A stretch of DNA of 64,000 nucleotides, from NCBI GenBank assembly GCA_033439295.1, contig JAVTLE010000011.1:1116082-1180081 (forward strand). The letters run 5' to 3'. Below are positions 15,812-23,337 of the stretch, in pieces. Every line of letters starts with the position of its first letter. Within the stretch, counting starts at the first letter, position 1. This DNA comes from Deuterostichococcus epilithicus. Its lineage: Eukaryota; Chlorophyta; Trebouxiophyceae; Prasiolales; Stichococcaceae. The notes under the pieces were generated by a model that was not told the origin of the DNA, did not search any database, and worked only from the letters and a program-made list of their open reading frames with translations. Made by a program: the position numbers and the translations under genes.

Positions 15812-17310
15812 GCCCAGCTGGCTTTGTCGCCCCAGGCTCGCTGGCAGAAGCAGCTCCCTTTCAACTCGCCGGCCGCGGCTTGCACAAGATCGCAGCCGGC
15901 TGGGATTCGCTTACGACCGCCATTTCCCCTGCTGGAGCCAGGGCTGGCCTGGAAGGAGGCAACGCAAAGAGTCATCTACCCTGGATACCGTTGCAGTACC
16001 AATCATCGGGAAGCACCTGGTTGCTGCGGCGTTGTCGCTTACGTCTGTGCGCATACAGACGCGTCGGATAACAATTGCGCGCGGTCCGCAGGTCGCTAGA
16101 CGAAGGTGTCAAGAGCACTCAAGTCACGAAGCACGACCAAGCCTGCGGAAACGTGGGAACGAAGCGGTGGCCCCATCAACTTAGCGTCAATTCAGAACAC
16201 ACCGTGCACGCTGCAAGACACATGTGGTGGGTTGCAGACCGGAGCCCAGCACTCGCTCATGTCTGTGGCTGCATCTGCTGCTCCGCTGAGTCTGACATGT
16301 AACGCACGCTCCACACTTCAGACGGCATCAGGTACGCAAACTCCGGCGCACTGGCTGGGCCACATGCAGCGCGCACGCGCCTTGGCCCTGCCGTTGGGCA
16401 GAGCATGCCCGAGAAGTCCACTTTCTTTTCTTCACAGCCCTTTTCGGCCCGGCCCGAGAGCCAATCTCCGACAGCTGCTGAAACAAGGCCGCTCGTGGTT
16501 CCGTCGGCGCTCATCGCTACTTCCTTTTGCAGCCATAAAGGCTGGCGTATCTCACCTGCAAGCTGGGCCGCCCTATCGACGTGGGTGAAGAGGCCTCCAA
16601 CACAAACACCTGAAGGCTCGTCAGGGCTCGGCAGACCACGATCAGGTGGGACGGCCACGGTCAGTCTGTGCGCGCACACTCTGCATGCAATAATCTCCTG
16701 AGTTGGTGTCTTTCCAGAAATGGCCTCGGAACGCGGGTGACTCCGCTTCCTGGACACGCTTCCTGGACGGCATTTTCATTCCCCTTACCGGCTGGGGGAC
16801 TCTGGGGTTTTATCAAGCAATCAAGCATGCACTAGGCTCTAGGCACCACCAGCAATGCATGTACAAACAAAGACACACAAACTTGACCTAGATACTTTGG
16901 AATAGCAAAGCAAATTCTGCACCAGCTTCCGAACTACTCTGGTGCTTTCCCCTGAAGCAACAAAGGTACCCGGATTCCTGACTTCCGTCCAAGATAGATA
17001 GTTTGATCGCCTTTCCGAAGCATAAGGCAGCATTCGATGGCTCTGCAGTGATCTTTGAGCGCGTTCGGCTATGCGGCAAAACATAAGTAACAGTGCCATA
17101 GATTTGACACTGCCGCAGCCATGCCGCCGTGCACATAACCTCACAGCCTTGCACGATACACTAGATCTGCATTCGCTGCCATTGAGTCCTAGCCGAGATA
17201 CTATACGCATGTCTGTGTACAGAGCGCCAAAGCTGCCTTGAGCGGGTGATGGCAGGATAGAACGGCACCGCCGCGGTTGCCACATCCTTAGCTGCCGAGG
17301 CGACCGGACC
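15812..17310. other. Divergent intergenic region, 1.5 kb
   Basis: Lies between the demethylase start (minus) and the apple-domain gene start (plus), so it should contain both promoters. The only candidate coding segment is the minus-strand frame at 16257-16757, listed separately. The rest, especially 16800-17250, is AT-richer and shows nothing I can name. Confidence 0.4.
16257..16757 (-). CDS. Hypothetical small protein, doubtful
   Basis: A minus-strand frame open for about 166 codons in otherwise gene-poor DNA. It begins at a non-ATG codon near its 5' end, has a CRVC pair near its N-terminus, and ends shortly after a stretch reading YLMPSEVWSVRYMS, which looks more protein-like than a random frame. 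A possible intron from about 16551 (donor GTGAGA) to about 16475 (acceptor TTTCAGCAG) would keep the frame. I recognise no family. An ATG in another frame lies just upstream near 16775. This could be a short gene, an upstream exon of something else, or chance in GC-rich DNA. Confidence 0.22.
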   Translation of the reverse strand: MSRKRSHPRSEAISGKTPTQEIIACRVCAHRLTVAVPPDRGLPSPDEPSGVCVGGLFTHVDRAAQLAGEIRQPLWLQKEVAMSADGTTSGLVSAAVGDWLSGRAEKGCEEKKVDFSGMLCPTAGPRRVRAACGPASAPEFAYLMPSEVWSVRYMSDSAEQQMQPQT

Positions 17311-19330
17311 ATGGCCAACAAGGGCTGGATCGTGCTGCTGGTCGTGAGCGTCGGAGCTCTGATGGCCACCTGGAACGTGGCGCGGCACCCGCACCTGTCG
17401 CACCTGGCGTTCCATTCCGACGAGCTGCGGCAGCACTCAGCGCAGCGGGTGCGGCGCGGCACAGGTGCGCGCCGGCGGCACCATGGCAGATTGATGGCAG
17501 AACACACATCACAGATCCTGCGTGCTGGACGTCGCTGCATATCTCCTGCTGGATGCCGCGATGTCCACATGGGGCTTGCCAGGCATCAGCGCTGTCCGTG
17601 CATTGTTCAGGCTTTGGGGCCGTGACGCCACAGCCGGCGACAGTGGCGGCGGCCGGCGAGGCAGCGCATGTCGCCGGTGCTGCGGAGGCAGTCGGTGCCG
17701 TCGCGGCCGCAGCGGCGCGGGACGCCGCAGTGGCGGTCCCACAGCCGCTGGCACAAGCAGATATTGCCGCCGTGGGTGGCGCGGCACTCGCTGCGAGCCC
17801 CGTACCGGGCGCTACAGCGCAGGGGCCTGCAGCCGCGGCGGCGGCTGGGCACCAGGCTGTCGCCGTAGCTGGCGCCGCTGCGCCGCTGCCGGGGGCGGTG
17901 CCCGTCGCAGAAGCTGCCGCCCCGGCCGGCGAGGTGGACGACCCTGAAGCCCAGGCGCAGCTGTCGCAGCGCGTGTGCGGCTCCCCGGCGGTCGACGGGT
18001 GAGCGCCCGACCAAGACGTGTCTGCTTGACCTGCTGTTTGCTGCCGAGTGCCGCCCCGACGCAGGCGCAGGGCCTATCTGCAGCAGCGCTCCCAACTGCA
18101 ATAGCATGACACTGCAAGCCCAATAGAGACCCCAAGCATGTGGACACTGCCCGGCACAGCCCTAGCATTGGCAAGCCACTGTGCGCAAATGGAGGCATCA
18201 TCTATGTGCTTCATCTGCCAACGGAGAAACCGAACTCATTTGCCACCGTCACGCGCATACGCGCTCTGTCGGGCTGCGCGAGATCAGGTGGATGTCAAAA
18301 GGCAAGGGCAGCAAGTTTTCCTGACATGGAGCTGAAGACACACCGCATTCTTTGTGCTGCAGGTATGCGCACGTGAAGCCGGAGTGCCTGTATGCCTCCC
18401 CAGCTGCCAGCTGGTGGAAGGCGTGGGAGGCGGGTGGCGGCCGCCGGGAGGAGCTGTCAGTGCACATCGACCGGCGCGCCGATTACGACGGTCTCGCGGT
18501 CGCCTGGGGCATCGGACACACCAAGACCAGCGTGGAGGATTGCGCCGAGGCGTGCCGCGCGCACAGGCCCAACCCCTCCGGAAGTGCGCCGTTGCTTCTG
18601 CCGCCTTCTCCTGGGTCCGTCGCTTGGACATGCATCGCGCCGCGCGGCGAGCTCCTGCGCCTCGACGTCTTGATCCTTCAGATGGTGCAGGCTGTGCGGT
18701 TGCGAGGAGTGTGGCTGTGGCGCGCGTGCATGGCAGGCCGCCTCTGCCCCATAGCGCTGCAGCAATGTCCGCTGCTGGGAGATTGGCTCCACGGCGTCCA
18801 ACTTGCGCTGTGCAGGCATGTTCGAGCCGCTGCCCTGCAACGCCTTCTCCTTCTGCATGCCGGACGAGGGCGAGTCCTGCTTCGAGCCGGACGCTCACAA
18901 GCACAGCAAGGTGTGTGATGGCACAAAGGTTTGGCAGCCGCACCCGGGTGCACCGTACATCGTTCGTGCTGTGTATCAGTGCCCCATGCAAAGCTCACTG
19001 CCCTGCCAACCGCTTATCATGTCCAATCGACACACCCGCAGGGAGATTGTTGGTTAAAGTTTACTGAAGGGCCTGCAAACCCAGAGGTGTGCCGCTTTTG
19101 CTGCTTGTCTCTGGAAGTTTGGAAGAGCCAATCGAACTGCGTTCGGACCATAGCTGTCAGCATGAAGCCAATCTTTGTTGGCACAGGTCAACATGCGGGG
19201 CAAGATCAGGCCGGAGACAAGAGCACGGCACGCCACTGCGCCAGAGCTCGTGCAGTGGCACTCGGGGGTCCTGCTGCCAAAAGGCGTGCGGCTCGCCAAT
19301 GGGACATGGAGCCCACGTTACGACTGGTGA
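17311..19330 (+). CDS. Membrane-anchored or secreted protein with Cys-rich apple-like domain
   Basis: Six exons join in one frame: 17311-17464, 17611-17998, 18363-18583, 18816-18910, 19042-19086 and 19187-19330, giving about 348 residues. The N-terminus has an uncleaved signal-anchor-like stretch (WIVLLVVSVGALMATW). An Ala/Val/Pro-rich stem of about 130 residues follows, fitting a type II Golgi or ER protein. The C-terminal half has an apple-like Cys pattern: a DYDG segment, a DCAEACRAH helix, PCNAFSFC, SCFEPDAHKH and GDCWLKF, then VQWHSGVLLP and a terminal WSPRYDW. I know this arrangement from predicted algal and plant lumenal proteins of unknown function. No catalytic motif is visible. The ATG sits in a favourable context (ACCATGG). 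It converges with the C2orf69-like gene. Confidence 0.75.
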
Positions 19331-19631: not shown

Positions 19632-21773
19632 TCACCCCTCCGGCTGCATGGCCGCAATGACCTCAAAGTGCATGGCCAGGCTGAGCGGCTCGCCCTCAAA
19701 GTACTTGCGCCGCGTCACTGGCACGCCGGCGGCGTTGAGCAGCTCGAAGCAGCGCTGCGCCTCGCGCCCAATCCACGGCCGCGTAGGATCGTCCCACTGG
19801 CGGGGGGTGCCGTGCAGGAACACGCGCGGCGGCGGCCGCCCGCTGCCGGCGACTCCCAGCTGCCGCGCCACCTGCGGATCTGCAGGGACGGAAAGGCATG
19901 ACCGGCAGCGGCGTCAAAACAAGATGGCAGTCGACCAAGAGTAGGCAGACGATGCAGTGAGCCTGTGTGTGTGCAGGCTGGTCCTCAGCTGCTAAGGCCA
20001 CCTGCGGGGGTTTGCGGGAGAATAGCAGCATCTATCGACGGCGACCTTCGTGCGAGCTGGCGAGGCTGTGGCAAGCGAGGTGTGGCTGCGCAGGCTACAC
20101 ACGAGAAACCCAGCGGTCCAGGGCTAGGGACGCGGGCTGACATGTGTTCTGGGCGGCACGGCTGCCATGCACGCTGCGTGTGCGCACCTGTGGCGTAGGC
20201 GCCCCTGCAGTTGAGGCCCACGTCCAGAAAGTGCAACTCGGCGACAGCGGCCAGGAACGCGAGCACGTCCCCCGGCGGGTCAAGTGCCTCGCAACCCTGC
20301 GCCAGCTCCCGACCACCGGCGCCGCTGCCGGCACACGCCTCGGCCCAGGCCGCCAGCTCAGCCAGCACCTGCGACATGGACACACATCAGTCGGTCGATC
20401 GTCATCGCGACCGTGCCTTCCCATATCAGATTGACGACGATTTGATGGCCAGTGTGTGGGGTTCTGCGACGCATGCCTTCCTGACGTTCACTGTTCTGGT
20501 GGCTGGGTGCAATCGTTTCCTCGTTCAAGGCACGCAGGATCCACACGCCCGATGTATGGATGCCTACCTGGTTGAGCACTGTGCCACCCTTGCTAAATCC
20601 GACCAGCTTGACGGGCAGCCGGCCCGGGCGTTGGTGGCGGCTGCGTGGCCCGCTCGCGACGGCGCCCGCTGCCACGCCACCGCCTGCGCGCCTGCGGTCA
20701 CGGTGGCTGCCGCCGCTCGCGGCTGGGCGGCCTCCCGCGTCCTCGAACGTGGCCTGGGCTGCCGCATGGAAGATTGGCACCGGGGGGGGCGGCGGCGACG
20801 GCGGCGGCGGCGGCGCCCAGAGGCCCCCGTCCTGGAGCAGCGACGCCAGCTGGCTGACGGCCTTGAGGCTCTGCAGGGCCACGGCACCAAGGCTGGGTGT
20901 TGCGCGTGGCAGACCGTAGATGTCACGACCGCACAGCAGAGAAACAGCTCACGGGACGAGCTGCAGGTGGGAATGCTCCAGTTTCACGATGGCGCACCCG
21001 ACCGTCATGCCCGATGGATTCGCCGCTGGCGGTCACGCGTCCGAGAAAGTGGTCAAAACATGCAAAGCTGGCCTCCAGGCGCGATGGCATGACGACCGCC
21101 ACATTTGCGCCAGGAAACTTGGCTGCCATCAGCGCCGCCTGCTGCTTTGGGTCCTGCATCGGCATGAGATACTGCACCAAATCACGTGGCGAAAAGTGAC
21201 GAGTGTCCAACGGAGCAACCCTCCAGGCAGCTGTTGCATGGCCGCCGCCGCAGCAGTACCCAGGAGCTCGGTTGCCGCTTGCGCCGCCTGCTTGTTCGAG
21301 CCCTGTTGCACAACATGCAGCTGCAGCATCCCAGGAACAAATCTGATCCTCCTCCACCTCCTGTGAGCCCCTAGGTTTCAGTACCAATCAGGACGTGTCT
21401 GCCAACGTCTTCCGTAGCGGCAGGGCTCACACCTGGGGAACACCGAAGAGCATGCTCAAGATGAGGAGGAGGGTACCTGCAGTTCAAGGACCCTTGCTGG
21501 CAGGCCCTTCGACTCCAGTTGGTCGCCCACGAAGAACACGACCATGGCGGTCGCAGCTCGGCTGCTGCCTGCTGTCATTTGCTGTGCAGGCTCTGCGAGA
21601 GTGCCTTCCTCGGCGCCGCCGGCCTGCCCACCCGCTGGAGGCGGTGGCGCCGGCAGGCAGTAGACCTTTTCAGTACCATGCACGCCAGTCAGCACCCGCA
21701 GCTGTGCGGCCGGCTGTGGCGGCTGCAGCGACGGCAGGTCTCCGACATCGGGCCCGCCTGCTTCGGGGGCCAT
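19632..21773 (-). CDS. C2orf69-like (UPF0565) hydrolase-fold protein
   Basis: Homolog of the C2orf69 family, which in animals is a mitochondrial protein with an alpha/beta-hydrolase-like fold linked to mitochondrial function. The first in-frame ATG is at 21773; exon 1 runs to 21477. Diagnostic segments in order: MVVFFVGD near 21530, KFPGANVAVVMPSR near 21100, a GFSKGGTVLNQ nucleophile-elbow-like loop near 20583-20606, ELHFLDVGLN near 20220, RVFLHGTPRQW near 19810, and a C-terminal YFEGE...MHFEVI. Pro- and Gly-rich insertions sit in the exon near 20880-20620. The stop is at 19632. The start lies 65 nt downstream of the bL30-like stop on the same strand. The in-frame sequence upstream of the ATG has no stop and is basic (LLRRFGTVAVRIWRG), resembling a mitochondrial presequence, so a non-AUG or fused start is possible. 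Confidence 0.85.
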
Positions 21774-21838
21774 GCCGCGCCAAATGCGCACGGCAACGGT
21801 ACCGAAGCGGCGGAGCAACCGCCCAGGCAGCTGGCCGC

Positions 21839-22249
21839 CTAGTGGCGCACGGCAATGGGTGGGCGTGGGGCCTTGGCGGCTGCTTCGGCGCGCTTGCGTG
21901 CAGCGAAAGCAGCGTCCGTCTCCACGCTCAGCATGTGCTTCACCTGCAGGCAGCGTTGCAGTTTTGACGTCGGCACATTCGAGAAGGTTTTGAAGTCGCC
22001 AAGGACTTGACAGCGATTTGCATCTTGCAAGGTAATCAAGTCGTTCGTGAAAGATGGACGCATGCAGACCAGCAGACCATGTGAGCGCACTGTGTCGATG
22101 GCGCCGCGGACTGATGCGCGGTTGGCCACCTGCACAGTCTGCTGGCGATACGATAGGCCCAGCGACCTCAGGACGCCGCGGTGCGTCTCACGCGTGCCCG
22201 CAAAGCTGCGCCTGAGGGTCACGAACAGCGTCCTGACAGGTTGCTCCAT
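21839..22249 (-). CDS. Mitochondrial-type ribosomal protein bL30-like
   Basis: Two exons, 22249-22091 and 21943-21839, encode 87 residues. The product matches the bacterial/mitochondrial L30 pattern: a beta strand (RTLFVTLRRSF), the THRGVLRSLGL turn-helix, QTVQV, then the helix RASVRGAIDTV and KHMLSVE after the splice. L30 is a small large-subunit ribosomal protein; the absence of a long plastid leader and the similarity to mitochondrial forms favour the mitochondrion, though this is inference. The ATG context is poor (C at -3). Only one further ATG lies in the spliced ORF, and it is in frame. The next gene on the same strand begins 65 nt after the stop, so this is probably the upstream cistron of a shared mRNA. 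Confidence 0.8.
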   Translation of the reverse strand: MEQPVRTLFVTLRRSFAGTRETHRGVLRSLGLSYRQQTVQVANRASVRGAIDTVRSHGLLVCMRPSFTNDLITLQDANRCQVLGDFKTFSNVPTSKLQRCLQVKHMLSVETDAAFAARKRAEAAAKAPRPPIAVRH

Positions 22250-22588
22250 GCGCAAATGTGTGCAGACGCCTGAAAGACTGCCAAGTATCGAGGCTCGAGT
22301 ACAGCCGTCGGCAGTCGAGGATCAGCGAGCAAGTGCAATCATCACAAGACACGCATCGGTTTGCACACTGTACCCTAGAAATATAGCTTCTGTGCCGAAA
22401 AAGCGCCGGCACACCTGTAAGCACGACTTGCCAACGTGGCGCGATGATCTTCAGATCAACTTGTCAACAGCAAAACGCTGCGCACGAGCCAACCTCCTGC
22501 AACAGTGCACAGCTTGCGATCCAGACGTCATCTCACACCTGATCTGCGAATTCCCCAGCTCTCGGGCCATCCAACTTCGCCACAAGTC
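22250..22588. promoter_or_regulatory. Divergent promoter region, bL30m / plastid-leader protein
   Basis: Only 339 bp separate the ATGs of two divergent small organelle-protein genes, so the interval must contain both 5' UTRs and both promoters. I see no recognisable TATA box or named motif. The shared location suggests, without proving, joint regulation. Confidence 0.4.
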
Positions 22589-23337
22589 ATGTCGGCAATC
22601 CAGTGCTCCCTGGTGCAGCCGCGGTGCGCTCAGCATGTGCGCACGCAACGCAGCGTGTGGCGCCCCTTCACATCTGCCGTTTCGCGTGGCCTGACGGCGC
22701 CGGCGGCACCCCTGCAGAACAGCAGACTGGTCACCTTGACACCGTGTGCCACTGGTGGTAAGCTATGGATCCACCTGCATGCCTGGCTTGTCGACCTGCC
22801 GCACGGTGGCAAACCGGACGCTGAACAGACTGAGACCTACCTCAGGTGACGAGGAGCCTGTGGAGCCAAAGATCACGCGGGAAACCGAGCCGGACCAGTG
22901 CGCATGCATGAGGACTGCTATAGCACGCGGCACTTTGGCTAGCTGTTCGAATACCGCCTTGCCAGGCGAATGCTACACAGCAGTGAATAAGCAGAGCAGG
23001 ATTGATGGCAGAGGAATGCCGCTCTCTGCCGCAGGTACTGGCAGACGCCATCGGAGGCGAAGGGCGAGAGCCCGGTTAAGGTAGACCATGCGGCTGTGCA
23101 TCAATGGTGTCAGTCTCACAGCATCCATCACGAGCGCTGCAGTGCTGCAGCGAGCCTTGGAAGCTTTCGCACGACGACGGCGCCTGGAGCATGCTGTGAT
23201 ACCTGCGTGCGCTGATGGCGCAGGATCCGCTCGCCATCATAGGCATCCTGGGCATCTTCTTCCCCTTCATCCTCCTAGGCATCGCAATCGCGACGGGTTA
23301 CGTCGACGTGTCGAACTACAGGCGAGCGGTCGATTGA
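22589..23337 (+). CDS. Small single-span protein with plastid transit-like leader
   Basis: Three exons fit one frame: 22589-22743, 23035-23080 and 23224-23337, giving 104 residues. The first 50 residues are rich in Ser, Thr, Arg, Gln and Ala with almost no acids (it begins MSAIQCSLVQPR), as in chloroplast transit peptides. A short hydrophilic segment (PSEAKGESPVKDP) precedes one clear transmembrane helix (LAIIGILGIFFPFILLGIA), then YVDVSNYR and the stop. Size and layout resemble small nuclear-encoded thylakoid subunits, but I do not recognise it as any named PSI, PSII, cytochrome b6f or NDH subunit. The exon 1 donor (ACC/GTGTGC) is the least certain junction; another donor 12 nt downstream would shift the frame to an early stop. 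Confidence 0.55.

Follow-up and report, generated by a model that had tools for sequence, protein, structure and literature searches.

Two open reading frames lie on the minus strand of the algal contig analysed here, the first (ORF1) encoding the mitochondrial ribosomal protein uL30m and the second (ORF2) a C2orf69-like protein, and they are separated by 65 nt, which raises the question of whether a single mRNA could give rise to both proteins. All positions refer to the window, that is, the whole 64,000-nt stretch of DNA that was analysed (contig C10:1116082-1180081), in a genome of 46.8 Mb distributed over 21 contigs. A green-algal origin is indicated by exons of the Rubisco small subunit, which, joined by hand with the middle missing, have chains labelled chloroplastic as their best match, by the plant and algal chains to which uL30m is most similar, and by the presence of two bicistrons known from green algae. 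The coordinates, the strand and the 65-nt spacing given in an earlier note on this DNA were reproduced: the TAG of ORF1 ends at 21839, the ATG of ORF2 is located at 21773, and the spacer between them contains no ATG. By homology, uL30m and ORF2 are genuine genes, and we consider on the basis of sequence that together they probably form a real bicistronic locus. The features of the gene models are the following.

22091..22249, minus strand: uL30m exon 1, with the start ATG at 22249 in the context TTGCGC-ATG-G
21944..22090, minus strand: predicted uL30m intron of 147 nt, GT-AG, in frame and stop-free; splicing closes a gap in the homology
21839..21943, minus strand: uL30m exon 2, with the stop TAG at 21841-21839 and an in-frame internal ATG at 21934 that has C at -3 and +4
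21774..21838, minus strand: inter-ORF spacer of 65 nt, 74% GC, ATG-free
21477..21773, minus strand: ORF2 exon 1, in which ATG 21773 is the first of its open frame, in the context CGCGGC-ATG-G
20998..21360, minus strand: ORF2 exon 2, preceded by intron 1, whose acceptor is the least certain site
20568..20870, minus strand: ORF2 exon 3, carrying a GFSKGG motif
20188..20368, minus strand: ORF2 exon 4
19632..19879, minus strand: ORF2 exon 5, with the stop TGA at 19634-19632

Read without splicing, ORF1 (22249-21839, minus strand) is open over 136 codons and contains five further ATGs, three of which are out of frame. In the four alignments shown, its translation matches uL30m sequences from PDB in two blocks, comprising residues ~6-55 and 102-136, while the targets are unbroken; the second block is weak in 7pkt_x (3.0 bits). 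Two blocks matched by unbroken targets point to a GT-AG intron of 147 nt (GTGCGC...CTGCAG, 22090-21944), the removal of which would eliminate four ATGs (22080, 22063, 22023 and 21978) and leave a coding sequence of 264 nt, or 87 aa, with one additional ATG, in frame. The earlier note had described an upstream ORF of 264 nt with one other, in-frame ATG. This description is true of the spliced coding sequence, and the single ATG is reconciled with the five in unspliced ORF1 because the intron removes the other four.

The spliced uL30m protein aligns in one piece to the best five of 45 PDB sequences (E 3.9e-18 to 6.3e-15), namely At5g55140 (6xyw, 3.9e-18), the uL30m proteins of 9evs, 9gyt and 8a22, and the Ribosomal_L30 domain-containing protein 7pkt_x; we take 7pkt to be from Chlamydomonas and 8a22 to be from Polytomella. 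Against the Pfam family L30 (PF00327, bacterial-type uL30) it scores 47 bits, the cut-off being 23. The name bL30m, under which the protein had first been proposed, is a misnomer, and the protein should be called uL30m. When compared with plant and green-algal mitochondrial uL30 (6xyw, 7pkt, 8a22), almost the entire ORF1 protein is covered by the alignment; the chains of 7pkt and 8a22 extend ~120 and ~90 residues past the match, respectively, whereas the ORF1 protein ends with the shared region. TAL-effector chains also occur in the list of 45 PDB sequences (E 4.8e-5 and weaker), with no single stretch that passes, and these were taken as artefacts. Searches for relatives of uL30m returned no algal locus in viral contigs, and those in bacterial and archaeal contigs returned one bacterial uL30 among the matches listed. 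A second L30 match in the genome is found on contig C16 (25.8 bits), has a stop at its end and presumably resembles cytosolic L7.

The ORF2 model (21773-19632) consists of five exons with a total length of 1,392 nt, encoding 463 aa, and all of its modelled introns are of the GT-AG type (21476-21361, 20997-20871, 20567-20369 and 20187-19880). Four candidate acceptors were tried for intron 1, all four of which keep the frame, and the remaining splice sites were picked by frame and by likeness to C2orf69. The spliced model matches the Pfam C2orf69 family (PF10561) in two stretches with 61.9 bits (cut-off 25). A genome-wide, exon-by-exon search for C2orf69 yielded one sub-threshold match (17.5 bits), which is located at this locus, so that no second copy is seen at that sensitivity. 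The GFSKGG motif encoded by exon 3 resembles a hydrolase nucleophile elbow. Comparison of ORF2 with PDB gave no match of note, the best two having E 0.47 and 0.48, and searches for its relatives returned no algal locus in bacterial and archaeal genome contigs or in viral contigs.

PF10561 is assigned to the alpha/beta hydrolases, the C2orf69 family is described as animal, and human C2orf69 is reported to be essential for respiratory-chain function (PMC11878206); the human member has also been linked to mitochondrial disease (PMC11878206 and article titles cited in PMC11876434). ORF2 differs from this description in that it comes from an algal genome and in that it carries long proline- and alanine-rich inserts. 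Its first 30 residues, counted from the ATG, include one basic and three acidic residues, and a mitochondrial address of the protein is therefore not evident. The proposal that the locus encodes two mitochondrial proteins accordingly holds for uL30m, by homology, but finds no comparable footing in ORF2, whose N-terminus as read from the ATG is not targeting-like.

At the uL30m start, position -3 is C and position +4 is G; the ORF2 start has G at both positions, and the internal ATG of uL30m has C at both. The contexts recorded previously, with C at -3 of the first start and G at both positions of the second, are correct, with the addition that the G at +4 of ORF1 makes its context just half weak. 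The two starts differ by C versus G at -3 and share G at +4, a -3/+4 pattern that is easily met by chance. As for the ATG content, 2,188 of 4,052 windows of 65 nt with similar GC (54%) are also free of ATG, so that the ATG-free spacer alone proves little. For the 326 nt formed by ORF1 after its start and the spacer, 203 of 4,709 windows matched for GC (4.3%), which overlap one another, hold one ATG or none. The number of ATGs in ORF1 and the spacer, start included, is 2, against 2.76 expected from base composition, which is a mild shortfall; the published sets of algal bicistrons show a depletion of AUGs ahead of ORF2 (PMC11291117). With a single weak internal AUG between the two starts, the locus would, if confirmed, serve as a natural and reasonably clean test case for leaky scanning. 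The ATGs closest upstream of the uL30m start are at 22342 and 22356, and hence a 5' UTR shorter than ~90 nt would be ATG-free.

As controls, four known bicistrons were sought in the same genome by five family searches. The CDC26-TTM (CYTH) pair was found at C18:2327307-2327260 on the minus strand, with an ATG-free spacer of 46 nt, and the TOM22-SDHAF3 (LYR-type) pair at C7:2902198-2901970, also on the minus strand, with an ATG-free spacer of 227 nt. PET100 is followed by a 3-beta-HSD/epimerase-like dehydrogenase at C12:1466274-1466125 (minus strand), with a spacer of 148 nt that contains one ATG, and we regard these two genes as another candidate bicistronic pair; PET100 is among the listed bicistronic loci, its partner being left unnamed in the relevant part of the text (PMC11291117). 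REX1B gave no match in the genome, and its profile gave no match in any genome searched. In the genome search the exons of CDC26 (16.9 bits) and PET100 (18.6 bits) scored below their cut-offs; the hand-joined peptides reached 26.3 bits against a cut-off of 24.5 for CDC26, for which five acceptor choices are possible, and 30.6 bits against 24 for PET100. The top-ranked CDC26 match, on C5 (25.5 bits), is glutamine-rich and on its own scores 22.2 bits, which is below the cut-off, and it was taken as an artefact. Contigs C11 and C10 hold a second CYTH match and a second LYR match, respectively.

The retention of at least two known pairs in this genome raises the prior for a uL30m-C2orf69 bicistron, while the control pairs give no base rate, because they were picked as already known. 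CDC26, the control ORF1 whose start could be placed, has G at -3, which indicates that a weak base at -3 is no fixed mark of bicistronic pairs in this genome.

Taken on its sequence, the locus likely produces one mRNA from which both proteins are made, with ORF2 being reached by leaky scanning. The promoter of a single nuclear unit on the minus strand would lie upstream of 22249, and transcription from it would give an mRNA with two complete frames, one for uL30m (87 aa) and one for an alpha/beta-hydrolase-like protein of the C2orf69 family (463 aa). Some of the ribosomes scanning from the cap would bypass the uL30m start, with its C at -3, as well as the weak internal AUG, and these ribosomes would then initiate at the better-placed ORF2 AUG at 21773. 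The earlier note had read the locus in this way, as one mRNA translated by leaky scanning. What supports this reading is a layout that fits a published class, together with the three tightly spaced pairs in the genome, whereas the splicing, the single transcript, the leaky scanning and the production of both proteins are what we infer.

In green algae, TGTAA usually serves as the poly(A) signal. On the minus strand it occurs 17 times in the whole window, and it is absent between window positions 17000 and 25000, hence also just past ORF1 and just past ORF2. Its absence near the locus suggests that this alga may use a different poly(A) signal. In the flanks of the locus, the plus strand upstream of uL30m contains a short, membrane-like open frame at ~23224-23337 (DPLAIIGILGIFFPFILLGIAIATGYVDVSNYRRAVD), which follows a GCGCAG acceptor and is a candidate exon of a divergent gene; its 40-aa peptide had no match in Pfam and none in PDB up to E 10. 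Downstream of ORF2, at ~18330-19330 on the plus strand, there is a PAN-domain gene of several exons (PAN_4, 27.2 bits for a hand-joined peptide against a cut-off of 27), which seems to be convergent with the C2orf69-like gene.

Two proteins could also be obtained from this locus if it consisted of overlapping monocistronic units, with the promoter of ORF2 inside the uL30m gene and the poly(A) site of ORF1 inside ORF2. No sequence feature forbids such an arrangement, and the Auxenochlorella annotation paper gives internal promoters as the predicted origin of many complex transcript isoforms (PMC12633428). Separate UTRs within 65 nt would nevertheless be impossible unless they overlapped coding sequence, and the sizes of the ORFs and of the spacer match those of the bicistronic class, and on balance we regard overlapping units as unlikely. 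A further alternative keeps the bicistronic mRNA but has ORF2 translated chiefly by ribosomes that reinitiate once ORF1 has terminated, and this we consider very unlikely. The 65-nt spacer is short, as would suit reinitiation, and the reporter study leaves room for a measure of it (PMC11892635). ORF1, however, has 87 codons, whereas the best efficiencies cited there are for uORFs of few codons (PMC11892635), and in a dual reporter a weaker ORF1 start decreased the ORF1 product while increasing the ORF2 product (PMC11291117).

A fusion protein would result if splicing of an intron between the two genes, such as one at 21850-21723 (GTGCGCCA...CTGCAG, 128 nt), removed both the stop of ORF1 and the start of ORF2 and so joined the two frames. 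The donor of this intron is identical over 8 bases to the predicted donor of ORF2 intron 2, the frame is kept, and five strong in-frame splice pairs, all with the same donor, are found here as opposed to none at the three control pairs, under a motif list chosen post hoc. At least one strong in-frame splice pair is present, however, in 8,355 of 20,000 matched stretches (42%), which is within chance; a narrower choice of motifs brings this to 325 of 9,732 (3.3%), which is less within chance. Fusion would moreover cut off the last three residues of uL30m, the final H of which is common to the five alignments shown, and we hold it to be highly improbable. Just as little credence can be given to a start of ORF2 further upstream, at a non-AUG codon, by which an arginine-rich, targeting-like stretch encoded in the spacer (GQLPGRLLRRFGTVAVRIWRG) would be added to the protein. 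Such an extension would supply what the N-terminus as read from the AUG does not offer, the ORF2 frame is open from 22187, and the stretch contains five basic residues and no acidic ones. The same composition or more is nonetheless seen in 518 of 3,661 windows that lack a stop and have a similar GC content (14%), which places the extension within what chance can produce, and the fragment carrying it has no Pfam match.

Leaky scanning on a single mRNA could also be subject to regulation, in that the uL30m intron might act as a switch for ORF2, with splicing setting the output of the C2orf69-like protein from the same mRNA, an extension that we put forward as quite improbable. If the intron were retained, ORF1 would still be open, the 147 nt containing no stop, and ORF2 would be preceded by four extra AUGs, of which three lie out of frame; if it were spliced, those four AUGs ahead of ORF2 would be removed. 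Should such a switch be true, the supply of mitoribosomes would be coupled to a hydrolase whose human relative is required by the respiratory chain. The shared message itself, if confirmed, would suggest a functional link between uL30m and C2orf69, and it would extend the known cases of algal genes translated in pairs from one message to a mitoribosomal protein and to a hydrolase family that is poorly understood.

Bicistronic loci in the nuclear genomes of green algae were reportedly described by Gallaher et al. in 2021. Such loci are also the subject of the work of Duenas et al. 2024/2025 (PMC11291117, PMC11892635), parts of which are used here for comparison. In the bicistrons of A. protothecoides the median lengths are 291 nt for ORF1, 40 nt for the spacer and 1185 nt for ORF2, and its monocistronic colinear genes lie a median of 2518 nt apart (PMC11291117). 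The same source gives 40 and 183 nt as medians for the bicistron spacer class and reports mitochondrial links for more than one quarter of the proteins encoded by bicistrons (PMC11291117). With reporters in A. protothecoides, weakening of the ORF1 start increased the output of ORF2, an extra AUG decreased it, and the reporter work favours leaky scanning over an IRES and over reinitiation (PMC11291117, PMC11892635). The uL30m-C2orf69 pair was not found in the text passages searched in these papers (PMC11291117, PMC11892635), and it is absent among the matches listed in literature searches. This kind of locus is thus already known, and the pair of uL30m and C2orf69 is probably new.

The proteins of the CDC26-TTM3 and TOM22-SDHAF3 pairs, which are described as deeply or widely conserved (PMC11291117), are unrelated to those of the present pair. 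What the present locus has in common with the bicistrons of green algae is that both genes are located on one strand, that ORF1 and the spacer are short, that ORF2 is larger than ORF1, that the base at -3, though not that at +4, is weaker at ORF1 than at ORF2, and that a mitochondrial protein is part of the pair. In terms of size it is close to the published medians for A. protothecoides, with 264 versus 291 nt for ORF1, 65 versus 40 nt for the spacer and 1392 versus 1185 nt for ORF2.
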